Made by a program: the position numbers and the translations under genes. Below are positions 47,019 to 62,030 of a stretch of 64,000 nucleotides of DNA, piece by piece. Origin of the DNA: Halomarina litorea. GTDB taxonomy: Archaea > Halobacteriota > Halobacteria > Halobacteriales > Haloarculaceae. The stretch is from positions 62,001 through 126,000 of the forward strand of contig NZ_CP100448.1 of the NCBI RefSeq assembly GCF_024227715.1. Reading direction: 5' to 3'. The notes under the pieces were generated by a model, which worked only from the letters and a program-made list of their open reading frames with translations, was not told the origin of the DNA and ran no database searches. Numbering within the stretch: the stretch's first letter is position 1; each line of letters begins with the position of its first letter.

Positions 47019-47078
47019 TACCGGACGCGGTGTGTGTCAACACGCACCTATTTACCCCGCCCGCCGAACCACGTTCGT

Positions 47079-48398
47079 ATGTCGCCCTCCCGGTGGATTC
47101 GGTCTCGGTCGCGCTGGCGGTGGGTCCTGTGGGCCGCACTCGCGGGCGGGTTCCTGCTGGTCAACTTCCACCGCGTCTCCTCGGCCGTCCTCGCGGACGA
47201 CCTGACCCGCGCGTTCGACACGACGGGCACCGAACTCGGCTTGCTCCACTCCTCCTTCTTCTACATCTACGCCGCCCTCCAGTTGCCCGCGGGCCTGCTC
47301 GTCGACCGGGCGGGCGTCCGCCGGGTGGCCGCCGCCGGCCTCGCCATCATGAGCGTTGGCGTCGTCGGGTTCGCGCTGGCGGACTCCCTGCTCGCGGGCT
47401 TCCTCGCCCGGGCGCTCGTCGGACTCGGCGGGAGCGTCCTCTACATCGCCACGCTCCGCTTCTGTGCGAACTGGTTCCGCCGCGACGAGTTCGCCACCAT
47501 GACGGGGTGGACCGTCGCCGCGGCGGGATTGGGTGGGGTGCTCGCGACGACGCCGCTCGCACTCGCCGTCGTCGCGGTGGGGTGGCGGGGGACGCTCCTC
47601 GCCACGGCCGTCGGCGGCGGGTCGCTCGCGGGCGTCATCTACCTCCTCGTCCGCGACCGGCCCCGCGACGGCGGGTTCGACCCCGTCGAGGGGGCGGACC
47701 CGCCGGAACGACGGGCCGACCTCGCCACCGTCGCGGCCAACACTCGGCGCGTCCTCCGGGAGCGCGAGACGTGGCTGCTCGGCGTCATGCTCTTTTTCGT
47801 CATCGGGACGAACTTCACCGTCCTCGGCCTCTGGGGGGTGCCCTACATCGCCCACGTCTACGACGTGTCGGTGGCGCGCGCCTCGACGTACGTCCTGCTG
47901 GGAAACGTCGGGTTGCTCGTCGGCCCGCCCGTGATGGGCACCCTCTCCGACCGCCTCGGACGGCGGACGGACATCATCCTCGCCTCGACGGTGGCGTTCA
48001 CGCTCGCCTACGGCACCGTCTTCGCTGTCGTCACCCCGCCGTTGCCGGTGTTCGGCGCGCTGCTCTTCCTCGCGCTGTTCACCAACGGCGGGACCCTGCT
48101 GGCGTACACCGTCGCCAAGGAGCGCCACGCGAACAGCGCCTCGGGCACCGTCACGGGCACCATCAACAGCATCGGCTACTTCGGGGCGGCGGTGTTCCCG
48201 GCGCTGATGGGCGTTGCCCTCGACACGTACTGGACCGGCACGACCATCGACGGCGCGCGGGTGTACACCGCGACGGGCTACCGGGTCGCCTTCGGCATCG
48301 CCACCGCTGCGGGGTGCGTCGCCGTCTGCTGTGCCGCGTGGCTCCACCTCAGACTCGACGGCGCGCCGAGCGAGCGGGCGGCGACGGCGGACGACTGA
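47079..48398 (+). CDS. MFS transporter
   Basis: A 439-residue major facilitator with 12 predicted membrane helices. The MFS A motif follows helix 2 (LQLPAGLLVDRAGVRRVAAA), and a second copy follows helix 8 (GPPVMGTLSDRLGRRTDIIL). The N-terminus FHRVSSAVLADDL resembles oxalate/formate and nitrate-type antiporters. Substrate not deducible. ATG at 47079; a CTATTTA element 30 nt upstream may be the TATA box. Confidence 0.9.
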   Translation: MSPSRWIRSRSRWRWVLWAALAGGFLLVNFHRVSSAVLADDLTRAFDTTGTELGLLHSSFFYIYAALQLPAGLLVDRAGVRRVAAAGLAIMSVGVVGFALADSLLAGFLARALVGLGGSVLYIATLRFCANWFRRDEFATMTGWTVAAAGLGGVLATTPLALAVVAVGWRGTLLATAVGGGSLAGVIYLLVRDRPRDGGFDPVEGADPPERRADLATVAANTRRVLRERETWLLGVMLFFVIGTNFTVLGLWGVPYIAHVYDVSVARASTYVLLGNVGLLVGPPVMGTLSDRLGRRTDIILASTVAFTLAYGTVFAVVTPPLPVFGALLFLALFTNGGTLLAYTVAKERHANSASGTVTGTINSIGYFGAAVFPALMGVALDTYWTGTTIDGARVYTATGYRVAFGIATAAGCVAVCCAAWLHLRLDGAPSERAATADD

Positions 48399-48410: not shown

Positions 48411-49070
48411 CTACCCGTCGCCCGCCGACGGTCGGAGCGCGTTCCGGTTGAGCGTCGCCTGCGCCCGCCGGATGCGCTCGGAGGCCGCCTGGTGGGAGAT
48501 GCCGACCTCGTCTGCGAGCGTCGCGAGTTCGACCTTGCGGGGGACGTCGAAGTAGCCGCGCTCGGTCGCCAGCGACAGTATGTGGTGTTGCTTCTCGCTC
48601 AACCCGAAGTCGGGGGTGGCGTCCGGGCCGTAGCGCTCCTCGTAGATGCGGAACACCTCGTAGTCGATGTCGTGGTCGTCGCAGAACTCGCGATACCGCC
48701 CGAAGGCGGCGCGGTCCGGGAACGCCACGCGGAACACCCAGCCGTCCTTCGTACCCGTGATTCGCTGGACGATGGTCGCCTCCTCGACGAGCACGGGCCA
48801 CGTGCTGCGTTCGAGGCCATCGCCGTGCCAGTCCATCCGGTAGAGCCGGCGGGTGCCGGTGTCGGCCACGGGAGCCACGTTCGTGACCGTCGTGTCCTCG
48901 TCGAGCGCCCGCTCCAGCGCCTCGAAGTCGTCGGCCTCGGCCCAGAGGAGCGTCCTGACGCCGCGGTCCGGCGTCTGGTTGGACTGCTCCCAGTCCAGTC
49001 GGACCCCCGGGACGCTCGTCAGCGTCCTCTCGAGGACCGGGTGGTGGAGTCGGAATTCGACGATGAGCAT
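48411..49070 (-). CDS. HTH_10 (Bat-type) regulator, possible regulator of the haloacid locus
   Basis: A 219-residue HTH_10 protein. The sensor half reads MLIVEFRLHHPVLERTLTSV and TGTRRLYRMDWHGDGLERST. The DNA-binding part reads FGLSEKQHHILSLATERGYF, then TLADEVGISHQAASERIRRA. It lies 67 nt downstream of the DehI gene on the same strand, so it may be the last gene of that transcript and its regulator; this is an inference from position. Start ATG at 49070. Confidence 0.9.
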   Translation of the reverse strand: MLIVEFRLHHPVLERTLTSVPGVRLDWEQSNQTPDRGVRTLLWAEADDFEALERALDEDTTVTNVAPVADTGTRRLYRMDWHGDGLERSTWPVLVEEATIVQRITGTKDGWVFRVAFPDRAAFGRYREFCDDHDIDYEVFRIYEERYGPDATPDFGLSEKQHHILSLATERGYFDVPRKVELATLADEVGISHQAASERIRRAQATLNRNALRPSAGDG

Positions 49071-49137
49071 CGACCGTACTCGCGGATGGTCGGCACTCAG
49101 CCCGCTGGCTGCGCGTGCAAGCCGTTTACTAGAGCCG

Positions 49138-50007
49138 TCAGCCGAGCGACCGCTCGCCGGCCGCGTCGACCGACGCCGCGAACACCGGGAGCGCCGGGAG
49201 GACCGTCTCGACCGCACCCGTGTTGAACTGGTGGAAGAGGCCCTGTACGTCGCCGATGGCGTCGTCTTCCATCCCGATTCCTCGGAGGTCCTCGGGTGCG
49301 AGGCGGGGGCGGTAGGGCGCGCCGGCGACGAACTCGTCGACGAGGTCCGACGTGCGCTCGCAGGCGCGGTCGAACCCGGCGCCCTCGAGTGTCGGTTCGA
49401 CGTCGGCCCACAGCGTCTCGAAGAACGCCGGCCACTGAGCGAGACAGCGGTAGATGGAGGGGAGGTCCCCGCCGAGGCCGTGGAACTCGCGGACCGCCTC
49501 CACAGTGGAGTCGAGGGACTCGGGGGCCGAGTCGACCATCGTCGGCGGCCGTCCCCGGTCGGCGTCCAGCCAGTCCGGGAAGGGGGCCGTCGTCGCCCGT
49601 TCGTCCAGCGGCGAGTCGCCCACCGGGTCGCCCTGCAGGGCCCGGTCCATCGTCCCGAACAGCACCGCGAGGCGGGGGGCGACCACGTCGAACGTCGCCA
49701 GTTGCCCGCGCGCTTCGGCGAACTCGGCGGGCGAGAGACCGGTCTCGGCCCGACGGTACGCGGGGGCGTCGTCGAGTTCCGAGAGGACGGCGTCCCGGTA
49801 GCGCACGGAGAACCGGGCGAACCCCCGGGTGTCGAACAGCGGCTTCACCTGCCCCCACGCGTAGCGCGTGAACTCCGGGTCGTTCGCCATCACGGTCCGG
49901 AATATCCAGTTGACGATGGGCGCGCGGAAGGTCCGCTTCACGTCGTCGTAGACGCCGCGTCGCCACCCGGTCGCCTCGTGTTCGTACAGTTGCTTCGAGG
50001 TGTCCAT
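49138..50007 (-). CDS. DehI-type 2-haloacid dehalogenase homologue
   Basis: A 289-residue all-helical protein of the group I (DehI) dehalogenases, which remove halide from both D- and L-2-haloacids without a covalent intermediate. FRAPIVNWIFRTVMANDPEF, AWGQVKPLFDTRGFARFSV and RYRDAVLSEL form the first repeat. LPSIYRCLAQWPAFFETLWA, with DLVDEFVAGAPYRP, forms the second pseudo-repeat, as expected for the family. I could not map the catalytic Asp safely. It is followed by an HTH_10 gene and preceded by a HAD-type dehalogenase homologue. Confidence 0.85.
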   Translation of the reverse strand: MDTSKQLYEHEATGWRRGVYDDVKRTFRAPIVNWIFRTVMANDPEFTRYAWGQVKPLFDTRGFARFSVRYRDAVLSELDDAPAYRRAETGLSPAEFAEARGQLATFDVVAPRLAVLFGTMDRALQGDPVGDSPLDERATTAPFPDWLDADRGRPPTMVDSAPESLDSTVEAVREFHGLGGDLPSIYRCLAQWPAFFETLWADVEPTLEGAGFDRACERTSDLVDEFVAGAPYRPRLAPEDLRGIGMEDDAIGDVQGLFHQFNTGAVETVLPALPVFAASVDAAGERSLG

Positions 50008-50076
50008 GCCGGGGGTTCTCGTGGACAGGGGGTATGCGTTGCCCCCACGCACAGGCAAGGTCGCGCCGACGCCCGT

Positions 50077-50763
50077 TCAGGCGTCGAGTTCGTCCGCCAG
50101 GTCGTGGAAGGAGTCGATGGTGACGTCCGGGTCGCGCCCGGCGAACGACTCCCACGGGCCGTCCCCCCGGTTGAGCCACGCGCCCTGCATCCCCGCGTTC
50201 ATCGCCCCGAGGACGTCGAAGGCGGGGCCGGCGACGTGGACCATCCGGTCGATTGGCGTCCCGGTCCGGGCCGCGGCGTGGCGGTAGATGTCGACGTGGG
50301 GCTTGAACGTCCGAATCTCGTCGGCCGAGATGGTATCGGAGAGCAGGTCCCCGATGTCGGCGTGTTCGACCATCGACTCGAGCATCTCCGGGTTGCCGTT
50401 CGAGACGACGTACACGTCGCGGCCCGTCTCGCGGATGCGCTCGATACCGTCGCGCACGTCCGGGAACACGTCGAGTTCGTGGTAGATTTCGAGTATCGCG
50501 TCGCGTTCCGCGGGGTCGAGTGCGACGCCGTGGACGTCCAGCGCGTACTGGAGGGCGTCGCGGTTCATCTCGTAGAACGGCTGGTAGAACCCGACGAAGT
50601 TCCCGACCATCGTGTACATCAGCGAGCGCGTCCGCCAGAGCTTCGAGACGGGTTCCGGGTCCTCGACGGCGTCCGCGAGCGCCCGTTCGGCCGCGTTCGG
50701 GTCGACGAGCGTTCCGTAGGAGTCGACGGTCACCGTCTCCACCCGGCCGGCATCGAGTGTCAT
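50077..50763 (-). CDS. HAD-type 2-haloacid dehalogenase homologue
   Basis: A 228-residue HAD hydrolase closest to type II L-2-haloacid dehalogenases. Compared by position with L-DEX: nucleophile Asp14, Thr18, Arg44, Ser121, Lys154, Tyr160 and Asp183 are all present at the expected +3/+4 offset. The residues at the L-DEX Ser175 and Asn177 positions are Ala178 and Pro180 (HVAGPAFDVLGA). It may therefore prefer another substrate, such as a phosphate or a different haloacid. Its leaderless promoter is shared back-to-back with the symporter genes. Confidence 0.85.
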   Translation of the reverse strand: MTLDAGRVETVTVDSYGTLVDPNAAERALADAVEDPEPVSKLWRTRSLMYTMVGNFVGFYQPFYEMNRDALQYALDVHGVALDPAERDAILEIYHELDVFPDVRDGIERIRETGRDVYVVSNGNPEMLESMVEHADIGDLLSDTISADEIRTFKPHVDIYRHAAARTGTPIDRMVHVAGPAFDVLGAMNAGMQGAWLNRGDGPWESFAGRDPDVTIDSFHDLADELDA

Positions 50764-50784
50764 GACAGAGGGTATCGATGAGCG

Positions 50785-50857
50785 TTGTATAAGCGTTCCC
50801 CGTCGTGTGAGCTGACCGTCCAGTCACCGAAACCGCACGTTACCCAACGATTATTAG
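50785..50857. promoter_or_regulatory. divergent promoter of the dehalogenase and symporter genes
   Basis: On the minus strand CTTATACAA (50785-50793) lies about 26 nt before the dehalogenase ATG (50763). On the plus strand GATTATTAG (50849-50857) lies about 30 nt before the DUF3311-like ATG (50883). Both distances fit leaderless haloarchaeal promoters. The 119-nt gap thus holds two back-to-back promoters, suggesting shared control. Confidence 0.6.
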
Positions 50858-50882
50858 GGTAGGTTCGAACGGCACACGTAGT

Positions 50883-51182
50883 ATGCAAACACATGTCAAG
50901 GAAGCAGCCAGCACTGGCATGGCGTTCGTGACCATCGCCGCGTCGGTCCACGCCGGCATCTGGTTCAGTCTGTTCGGCGTCCCCGACGTGACGGTGCTCA
51001 ACTGGCCGTTCCACTACTTCTGGTTCGTCGTCGGCTCAGTTGTGTCCTTGCTCGTGATATTTTGGGTGTACGACCGGTACGCGACGACGCTCGCCGCCGA
51101 GAAGGCCGAGATGCACACTCGACACGAGCGGGCGGCGAGGAGTGACCGGGAGACGCCCGCCGCCGGCGGGGGGGAGGACTGA
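50883..51182 (+). CDS. DUF3311-like small membrane protein, symporter partner
   Basis: A 99-residue protein with two membrane segments (TGMAFVTIAASVHAGIWFSL and HYFWFVVGSVVSLLVIFWVY) and the conserved loop GVPDVTVLNWPFHYFWF. A charged tail ends it. Such small proteins are typically encoded just before SSS-family symporters and are thought to help their assembly or function. The symporter gene begins 3 nt after its stop. Confidence 0.82.
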   Translation: MQTHVKEAASTGMAFVTIAASVHAGIWFSLFGVPDVTVLNWPFHYFWFVVGSVVSLLVIFWVYDRYATTLAAEKAEMHTRHERAARSDRETPAAGGGED

Positions 51183-51185
51183 GCC

Positions 51186-52835
51186 GTGGTCGTCCTGCAG
51201 GGGTCCTACCAGCAGACGTTCGAGCAGTTGGGCCTGCCGCTGGTCATCATCGTCGGGTCGATACTGCTGTACTTCGCCGTGAGCTACTACTTCCGACAGC
51301 GGGTGAGTGACACCGCGGACCTGTACGTCGCCGACCGGTCCATCGGCTCTATCGTCAACGGGGCCGCGATGAGCGCCTCGTGGGAGAGCCTCGCGACGTT
51401 CATGGGAGTGGTGGCGCTCATCGTGAGCCTCCAGTTGCCGTTCATCGCCATGTGGGCGAACTTCATGCTCTCCATCCCCCTCATCGTCCTGCTGTACGGG
51501 CAGACGCTCCGCCGCCTCGGGGTGTACACGCCCGCGAAGTTCTGCCAGCAGCGCTACGGACGGAGCATGGGGATGCTGATGGCCCTGCTGCTCGTCCTCG
51601 TCATGCTGATGTACGCCCTCGGGCAGTTCATCGGCCTCGCGAAGGTCGCCAACGTCCTGTTCGGCTGGCCGTTCGAACTCTCGCTGGTCGTCATCGCCGT
51701 CATCGTCGTCGGCTACATCGTCCTCGGGGGGATGTTCGGCGTCTCGTACAACGCCGCGCTCCAGTTCGTCATCATGTTCACCGCGGCGTACATCCCGATG
51801 GCGTTCGTCCTCAACGACCTCGGGGCCAGCGGGTGGTGGTTCCCGCCGCTCGGGTACACGAGCCTCACCGACGAGATGGTTCAGACGTTCCCCGGCTTCT
51901 TCGACCTCACGTTCGGCCTGAAGTGGTACGTCGCGCTGTTCCTCGCGATGGCGCTCGGCCCCATCGGGATGCCGCACATGGCCCAGCGCGTGTTCACGAG
52001 CGACAGCATCGAGGGCGGTCGGCGCTCCGTCCTCTGGTTCGTCGCGCTCACGGGCCTCCTGTTCGCGGTCATGTACTCCGTCGGCTTCGCGGGCGTGTTC
52101 TGGGCCAACCAGCAGGGCCTCGACATCCCGCAGGCGGACTTCGACAAGATGATCTTCTACATCAACTTCGCGTTCAACGGCGACACCATCACCGGCTACG
52201 TCGTCGCCGGGGCGCTCGCGGGCGCGCTCTCGACGGTCAGCGGCCACATGATGGCCATCAGCGCGACGGTCGCCAACGACCTCGTCGACATGTTCGACGT
52301 GGACGTCCCCGAGGACCGCAAGACCCGACTCGGCTACGTCACCATCGTCGGTGCCGGCCTCGTCATCGCGCTCCTCGCGCTGAACCCGCCCGCGTTCCTC
52401 GTGGTGAGCATCCTCTGGGCGTTCTCGCTGGCCGCGGCCGCCATCACGCCCGTCATCGTCCTCGGCGTGTGGTCGAGTCGCGTGAACCGCTACGGCGCGA
52501 TTCCGGCGAGCGTCGTCGGCGCACTCGTCGTCGTCGTCTTCTCGCCGCACGTGCTCCCCGGAATCACGTTCGGTGCGGGCGGCATCACCTCCGCGCTGGG
52601 GATGGACGCCGCGTTCGTCGCCGTCCCGCTCTCCATCATCGTCCTCGTCGTCGGGTCGCTCCTCGGCGAGCGGGTCGGGTCGATAGACGACCGCGAGAAC
52701 CAGCGGCTGGTCAACGAGATACACGGCTACCCGGCGGACGGCCGACGGCGGTTCAGCAGTGCGTGGCCGTTGCTCGTCCTCGCGGCGCTCTGCGTCCCGC
52801 TCCTCGTGTGGGGGCTGGCCGCCTGGCCCGCTTGA
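51186..52835 (+). CDS. sodium:solute symporter (SSS family)
   Basis: A 549-residue transporter with about 13 membrane segments. The SSS core is visible in YFAVSYYFRQRVSDTADLYV, GAAMSASWESLATFMGVVAL, LALGPIGMPHMAQRVF-like MALGPIGMPHMAQRVFTSDS, and GALAGALSTVSGHMMAISAT (sodium site 2 Ser-Thr). Relatives carry acetate, other monocarboxylates or haloacids. Placement beside two dehalogenase homologues suggests a short carboxylic or halocarboxylic acid as substrate. It starts at GTG, 3 nt after the partner gene. Confidence 0.92.
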   Translation: MVVLQGSYQQTFEQLGLPLVIIVGSILLYFAVSYYFRQRVSDTADLYVADRSIGSIVNGAAMSASWESLATFMGVVALIVSLQLPFIAMWANFMLSIPLIVLLYGQTLRRLGVYTPAKFCQQRYGRSMGMLMALLLVLVMLMYALGQFIGLAKVANVLFGWPFELSLVVIAVIVVGYIVLGGMFGVSYNAALQFVIMFTAAYIPMAFVLNDLGASGWWFPPLGYTSLTDEMVQTFPGFFDLTFGLKWYVALFLAMALGPIGMPHMAQRVFTSDSIEGGRRSVLWFVALTGLLFAVMYSVGFAGVFWANQQGLDIPQADFDKMIFYINFAFNGDTITGYVVAGALAGALSTVSGHMMAISATVANDLVDMFDVDVPEDRKTRLGYVTIVGAGLVIALLALNPPAFLVVSILWAFSLAAAAITPVIVLGVWSSRVNRYGAIPASVVGALVVVVFSPHVLPGITFGAGGITSALGMDAAFVAVPLSIIVLVVGSLLGERVGSIDDRENQRLVNEIHGYPADGRRRFSSAWPLLVLAALCVPLLVWGLAAWPA

Positions 52836-52845
52836 GCGTTCGGCC

Positions 52846-53307
52846 TCACTCCCCGTCCAGCGAGCGGCGGAACCGCTCGCGCGAGACGACGCGGAAGGTC
52901 ATCCCGACGGTGCCGACGACGCTCCCGTCTTCCGCGCCCGCCCGTCTGACCGTCCCCGTGAGTTCCAGTCGCGGGGCGGCCACCCGGTCGAGCGTCGTCT
53001 CGACGACGAGGTCGGTGCCGAGCGGCGCGGCCCGGCGGTGCGAGACGTCCGCCGCCTCCCCCAGCGTCCCCGTCCCGTCGGGGAGGTGCCCGCGCAGCGA
53101 CTCCCGGCCCGTGAACTCACAGGCCGCCAGCAGGTGGTGGGTGCCGAGCACCGGCACCGACTCCTCGGGGGTGGCGTCCGCGGCGGCCGACAGGCCCGGC
53201 GGGTCCGACTGCTCGCCGAAGACGGTGGTCGCGTGTTCCGGCCCGACGGTGAACTCGCGGTGGCCGAGCACCTCCTCCCCTCGGAGACCGCTCAGGTCGA
53301 TGTCCAT
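52846..53307 (-). CDS. FlK-like hotdog thioesterase
   Basis: A 153-residue single hotdog-domain protein resembling fluoroacetyl-CoA thioesterase FlK and its family. The probable catalytic triad is Thr56 (LGTHHLL), Glu64 (AACEFTG) and His90 (DVSHRRA). The spacings of 8 and 26 residues are those of FlK Thr42, Glu50 and His76. The following strands (GTDLVVETTLDRVAAPRLEL) fit a hotdog sheet. It probably hydrolyses an acyl-CoA; a haloacyl-CoA is an attractive guess from the neighbours. It converges with the symporter gene (10-nt gap). A folded potential leader lies upstream. Confidence 0.8.
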   Translation of the reverse strand: MDIDLSGLRGEEVLGHREFTVGPEHATTVFGEQSDPPGLSAAADATPEESVPVLGTHHLLAACEFTGRESLRGHLPDGTGTLGEAADVSHRRAAPLGTDLVVETTLDRVAAPRLELTGTVRRAGAEDGSVVGTVGMTFRVVSRERFRRSLDGE

Positions 53308-61795: not shown

Positions 61796-62030
61796 TCCCC
61801 TCCACCGGAGTGCAAGTCTTCACGACGGGGGCCGCCCGCGCTGCAGCGCAGCCACCTCGCGTCTCGGCGGAACGTCCGGTACCGTCGTCACAGTACACTC
61901 CGTCAACCCGCGACGCACGGGGGACACACTCACTCCGGAGTCTGTTTCGTGGGAATCGACTCACGATAGTCAGTTCGCTGGTGGGTGACAGGCACTCACA
62001 GTCCACGGGTTGGAAGCCGACGTAGACGAC

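Follow-up and report, generated by a model that had tools for sequence, protein, structure and literature searches.

Organization of the locus and recurrence of a four-gene core

The window analyzed here is a stretch of 64,000 nucleotides of Halomarina litorea DNA (GCF_024227715.1, NZ_CP100448.1, forward-strand positions 62,001–126,000), in which an earlier note had placed a candidate haloacid uptake and breakdown locus of six adjacent genes; all positions below are those of the window. The open reading frames and families of the six genes were confirmed at their coordinates, apart from the label DUF3311 given to the small membrane protein: that match has an E value of 0.74, and DUF4212 and TIGR03647 fit better, with scores below cut-off. 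The genes and the region between the two divergent units are as follows.

48411–49070, minus strand, HTH_10/BAT-type transcription regulator (PF04967, 60 bits; PF15915, 39 bits)
49138–50007, minus strand, DehI-fold protein of a haloarchaeal subfamily (PF10778, 110 bits)
50077–50763, minus strand, HAD type II (L-2-haloacid dehalogenase-like) protein (TIGR01428, 149 bits; cut-off 125)
50764–50882, no strand, putative divergent promoter region (TATA-like sites, background rate computed)
50883–51182, plus strand, small membrane subunit, DUF4212/TIGR03647-like (scores below cut-off; also a partner of the symporter elsewhere)
51186–52835, plus strand, SSF/SSS-family symporter (PF00474, 139 bits; TIGR03648, 189 bits, below its cut-off)
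52846–53307, minus strand, FlK-like hot-dog thioesterase (PF22636, 45 bits; cut-off 27)

Gene families were surveyed in 392 genomes of the order Halobacteriales. DehI was present in 59 of these and the FlK gene in 26; members of the HAD family occurred in 253, and an orthologue of the symporter in 12. DehI was carried by 10 of those 12 (P 1.5e-7 by the hypergeometric distribution, without correction for phylogeny), and in eight of the 12, the window included, the genes sit together. A core encoding the DehI-fold protein, the HAD type II protein, the small membrane subunit, and the SSS symporter is common to the window and seven other sampled haloarchaeal loci from two other families, six of them with all four genes and one (L036) without HAD. 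The proposed grouping of all six genes as a unit was thus not upheld, as these four genes recur together whereas HTH_10 and FlK do not. Three arrangements of the core were seen: a single DehI-HAD-small-SSS run of the Natronorubrum and Haloterrigena type (L034–L037, L039, and L045), convergent pairs (L041), and the divergent form of the window. The HAD gene directly adjoins DehI in 14 further loci from three families, and HAD-DehI neighbors without the symporter were found at eight loci (L055, L070, L074, and L082–L086). In the DehI tree, the window protein groups with same-genus DehI proteins that have no HAD and SSS beside them (support 100/94) and is distant from the Natronorubrum group; the DehI-HAD-SSS association therefore formed at least twice. 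Chance adjacency would account for the lack of conserved linkage of FlK and HTH_10, but adjacency of DehI to HAD and to SSS recurs in independent lineages, and HAD adjacency in five lineages has a rough binomial probability of ∼6e-12. Chance is therefore unlikely for the four core genes, and we give this explanation almost no credence. The linkage of two dehalogenase folds with a carboxylate-type symporter, central to the earlier proposal, is borne out across lineages and arrangements. At three same-genus loci (L062, L067, and L078), the neighbors of DehI on its two sides are a DnaJ-ferredoxin fusion protein and a membrane/winged-helix protein rather than HAD and SSS.

In the window, the leftward HAD gene and the rightward small-subunit gene start from a common 119-base gap. 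TATA-like sequences, TTATAC for HAD and ATTATTA for the small subunit, form A/T-rich sites ∼25 to 33 bases before each ATG, a leaderless spacing. The rates at random positions of this 70% GC window are 0.2% for a 7-of-7 A/T run and 0.08% for a 6-of-6 TATA-like match. With such rare sites on both strands, the two-way leaderless promoter suggested previously for this gap is plausible. The only direct repeats detected within the locus were codon-level ones.

Active-site residues of the DehI-fold and HAD proteins

The DehI-fold protein has the Pfam DehI domain and the two-repeat fold of group I (DehI-type) enzymes. Its AlphaFold model (pLDDT 94.6) contains the whole DehI fold and matches HadD AJ1 (5gzy) over its full length (TM 0.78, Z 26.8; two structure comparisons), with values of TM 0.72 to 0.79 and Z ∼25 to 27 across the group I D-/DL-2-haloacid dehalogenases compared (5gzy, DL-DEX 4n2x, and DehI PP3 3bjx). 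Unlike those enzymes, to which its identity is ∼20%, Trp48, Asn131, Tyr134, and Asp205 (HadD numbering) are replaced in all haloarchaeal homologues examined. Five active-site residues are strictly conserved between HadD and the DL enzymes; mutating them destroys or strongly reduces activity, and the Asp to Asn change abolishes the activity of HadD (PMC5780510). In the window protein, the catalytic Asp (HadD Asp205, DehI Asp189) is Ile185, the assisting Asn131 is Ala111, and the strictly conserved Trp48 and Tyr134 are Ile31 and Leu114, leaving Ser204 as the sole strict residue retained. None of the four catalytic residues (Asp, Asn, Trp, and Tyr) occurs in any of the 52 haloarchaeal homologues examined. 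All four are present in a bacterial homologue from Roseovarius that is 27% identical to the window protein, and because they are visible in so distant a relative, the alignment is capable of detecting them. A half-swapped register of the repeats, in which the N-terminal half best matches HadD repeat 2, was considered and rejected as a location for the site; the catalytic Asp is absent there too (Ile35), although conservation of Asn33 and Asn262 is complete or almost complete. Residues invariant among the haloarchaeal homologues include Asn33, Asp107, His176, and Arg187, and these proteins therefore represent a conserved family of their own, found so far, at this similarity, in haloarchaea only. 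Family and fold thus agree with the DehI-type dehalogenase of the earlier note, but four of the five strict active-site residues, including the essential Asp, are lost. Judged from these replacements, the protein must rely on another catalytic site or have some other role. No study of a haloarchaeal DehI or haloacid enzyme was found in the open-access literature.

The HAD protein scores above the TIGR01428 cut-off for L-2-haloacid dehalogenases (149 versus 125 bits) and has the Asp nucleophile within a DxY motif (D14-S-Y16). In common with the enzymes of group A (L-DEX and DehIVa) and group B (DehRhb and ZgHAD), it possesses the nucleophilic Asp, Thr, Arg41, Ser118, Lys151, Tyr157, and Asp180. 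The reported nine-residue motifs are DTRSKYSND for group A and DTF(S/T)KYAHD for group B (PMC8490876). Alignments to 2no4 and 1jud give DTRSKY-A-P-D for the window protein, which matches neither motif, as positions 175 and 177 are Ala/Pro versus Ser/Asn (group A) or Ala/His (group B). Among the haloarchaeal HAD relatives examined, position 177 is always Pro, Gly, or Leu and never Asn or His; Ala at position 175 also occurs in the printed sequence of the 1zrm chain of L-DEX. Assignment as a phosphatase was rejected, given DxY rather than DxD and a motif IV without a second acidic residue, and for want of the phosphatase DxD the protein still resembles a dehalogenase-type hydrolase. Its predicted model was of low confidence around the catalytic loop and was not used. 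The description of this gene as a HAD-type dehalogenase homologue therefore stands with respect to TIGR01428 and seven of the nine L-DEX residues, but not for the 175/177 pair. One HAD copy beside DehI (L055:2-793) has Ala for the nucleophilic Asp and Pro for Thr; it is probably inactive, or lies where a broken contig ends.

On these residues, neither protein is assignable as a known dehalogenase, and an unusual dehalogenase is conceivable. The locus could still serve haloacid breakdown if 2-haloacids entered through the symporter and their D- and L-forms were dehalogenated by the DehI and HAD proteins via noncanonical active sites. Such a role is suggested by the repeated adjacency of two unrelated dehalogenase folds, by the full-length match of the DehI fold to D-DEX, and by a HAD protein that passes TIGR01428, has seven of the nine L-DEX residues, and carries DxY where phosphatases have DxD. 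It is opposed by the loss of the four DehI catalytic residues throughout the haloarchaeal set, where the Asp to Asn change alone inactivates HadD (PMC5780510), by a HAD protein with neither the Ser/Asn nor the Ala/His pair, and by the acyl-CoA metabolism genes that neighbor the symporter elsewhere (see below). Since both proteins are without key catalytic residues of the known dehalogenases, haloacid breakdown is unproven. Of the earlier proposal of a haloacid locus, the fold pair linked to a carboxylate-type symporter stands, but with the catalytic residues replaced, FlK and HTH_10 outside the core, and acyl-CoA neighbors, the haloacid reading is weak and, in our judgment, unlikely.

On annotated haloarchaeal plasmids, the DehI homologues bear the label halocarboxylic acid dehydrogenase DehI; two of these plasmids also list the HAD partner as haloacid dehalogenase, with a xenobiotic-metabolism tag. 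In view of the residue evidence, these labels should not be trusted.

The symporter, its acyl-CoA neighborhood, and the proposed function

The symporter belongs to the SSS family (PF00474, 139 bits) and is nearest to the VC_2705, ActP, and MctC monocarboxylate types, in agreement with the carboxylate type assigned previously. As in that branch, a small membrane subunit adjoins it, and this subunit is a conserved symporter partner in other genomes. In contrast to VC_2705, ActP, and MctC, the window symporter falls below the curated cut-offs for TIGR03648 (189 versus 321 bits), ActP, and MctC, and its substrate is not fixed by sequence.

In nine of the 12 symporter genomes, a mutase lies near the symporter, often with beta-oxidation genes (L034, L035, L036, L037, L039, L041, L045, L098, and L100; some on plasmids). 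All nine of these mutases have Phe/Gln at the two substrate-deciding positions and Ala at position 117, as expected for an isobutyryl-CoA mutase; six other haloarchaeal mutases near DehI, away from the symporter, have Tyr/Arg. We take Phe/Gln to denote isobutyryl-CoA mutase, Tyr/Arg methylmalonyl-CoA mutase, and Ile with Asp117 2-hydroxyisobutyryl-CoA mutase. The closest solved relative of the neighboring mutase is 2-hydroxyisobutyryl-CoA mutase 4r3u (623 bits, versus 480 for methylmalonyl-CoA mutase), but this identity was rejected, as the Ile and Asp of 4r3u are missing. The DehI and HAD proteins of Haloterrigena turkmenica are WP_012945425 and WP_012945424, respectively. On pHTUR01 of this species and on a plasmid of Natronorubrum aibiense, the core lies between an AMP-forming acyl-CoA ligase and the mutase large subunit, within islands that also hold a B12-binding subunit, MeaB, acyl-CoA dehydrogenases, and 3-hydroxyacyl-CoA dehydrogenase; the N. 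aibiense island additionally contains thiolase-like, enoyl-CoA hydratase, and CoA-transferase genes. The window has the same four-gene core, but alone, with mutase and ligase elsewhere in the genome. In the same-genus genome G256 (L098), the order MaoC-HAD-small-SSS-54 aa-mutase-ligase places a HAD-small-SSS block inside a mutase-ligase operon. The orthologous mutase-ligase pair of the window genome, elsewhere on the chromosome (L164), is without the block; a HAD-small-SSS block is present instead at the window locus. The MaoC-HAD-small-SSS-54 aa segment of G256 lies between an ABC permease and the mutase (L098:5363-12992), and in the window genome the permease directly adjoins the mutase (L164:6500-11122). 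A 2010 paper describes bacteria as the sole known source of isobutyryl-CoA mutase (PMC2847961). No open-access report was found on haloarchaeal B12-dependent mutases with the Phe/Gln signature in such apparent branched-acid catabolic islands.

We propose, with about even confidence, that the four genes form a recurrent haloarchaeal module for the import of a short, probably isobutyrate-like carboxylate, with two linked hydrolase-fold enzymes of unproven substrate. By family, the SSS symporter and its DUF4212-like subunit would import a small monocarboxylate with Na+, and from its context the intact module would feed CoA ligation, an isobutyryl-CoA-mutase-like enzyme, and beta-oxidation. Because these are the neighbors of the symporter, isobutyrate or a related short branched acid is the probable natural substrate. 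With the nucleophile and most substrate-binding residues of L-2-haloacid dehalogenases in place, the HAD protein may hydrolyze a carboxylate substituted at C2, by way of an ester intermediate and with an altered mode of water activation. The DehI-fold protein, its fold kept but not the known catalytic site, may have another active site or another role. Several points weigh against this proposal. Sequence alone does not settle what the symporter carries; the window-genome mutase lies elsewhere on the chromosome, so that the isobutyrate link rests on relatives; and the mutase residue code is, in part, a presumed one. Moreover, the described functions of both folds are, to our knowledge, mainly on haloacids (or an epoxide acid), and because the two are also repeatedly paired, the pairing could mean dehalogenation at altered sites. 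A more specific version, which we hold only tentatively, is that a haloarchaeal DehI-fold family with a rebuilt active site and a noncanonical HAD protein jointly act on a C2-substituted short carboxylate, possibly halogenated, that a dedicated Na+ symporter imports and isobutyryl-CoA-mutase catabolism receives.

Alternatively, the DehI and HAD proteins might be accessory or non-hydrolytic, acting, for example, in ligand binding or metabolite repair and riding on mobile carboxylate-catabolism islands of which the window copy would be a displaced fragment. The patchy occurrence of DehI (59 of the 392 genomes, in many contexts and also on plasmids) and strongly conserved residues that differ from the dehalogenase site are consistent with this idea. 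The HAD nucleophile, Arg, Lys, and Tyr are retained, however, suggesting catalysis, and strong conservation in both families speaks against decay; we consider this explanation improbable. For the proposed carboxylate module, the recurrent linkage provides a testable route to the real substrate, and the islands around the isobutyryl-CoA-mutase-like enzymes hint at an archaeal pathway for branched short acids that has received little study.

Genes flanking the core

The FlK-like and HTH_10 genes are neighbors only, outside the conserved core. In four other same-genus genomes, DehI occupies the same backbone (MFS ... DehI ... FlK-UDG, where UDG is a uracil-DNA glycosylase gene) with no HAD or SSS beside it. 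The FlK-UDG pair is also adjacent in L102, from another family, and in L103, from a genome without a DehI match, with no DehI in either stretch; the FlK-like gene thus pairs with UDG and not with DehI. The window protein aligns with the Thr42/Glu50/His76 triad of the FlK fluoroacetyl-CoA thioesterase (T56, E64, and H90), but the match is weak (E 0.03). The Phe33/Phe36 positions, which we take to form a specificity lid, lie outside the aligned stretch and would be Pro47/Ser50 if the alignment were extended gap-free. Rescue of CoA from haloacyl-CoA, the role previously suggested for this gene, was discarded, as FlK and UDG stay together where HAD and SSS are missing and also in a genome that has no DehI; the gene is probably not part of the system. 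The HTH_10 gene, previously considered the regulator of the locus, is not beside DehI in any other same-genus locus, and its relatives elsewhere are 31 to 38% identical and scattered; we regard it as a lineage-specific neighbor rather than a dedicated regulator. An MFS transporter gene is located at window positions 47034–48398, and MFS genes directly abut DehI in several genomes of the family (also L055, L061, and L066). A plasmid of Natrinema caseinilyticum (L152) has two MFS genes ahead of DehI.

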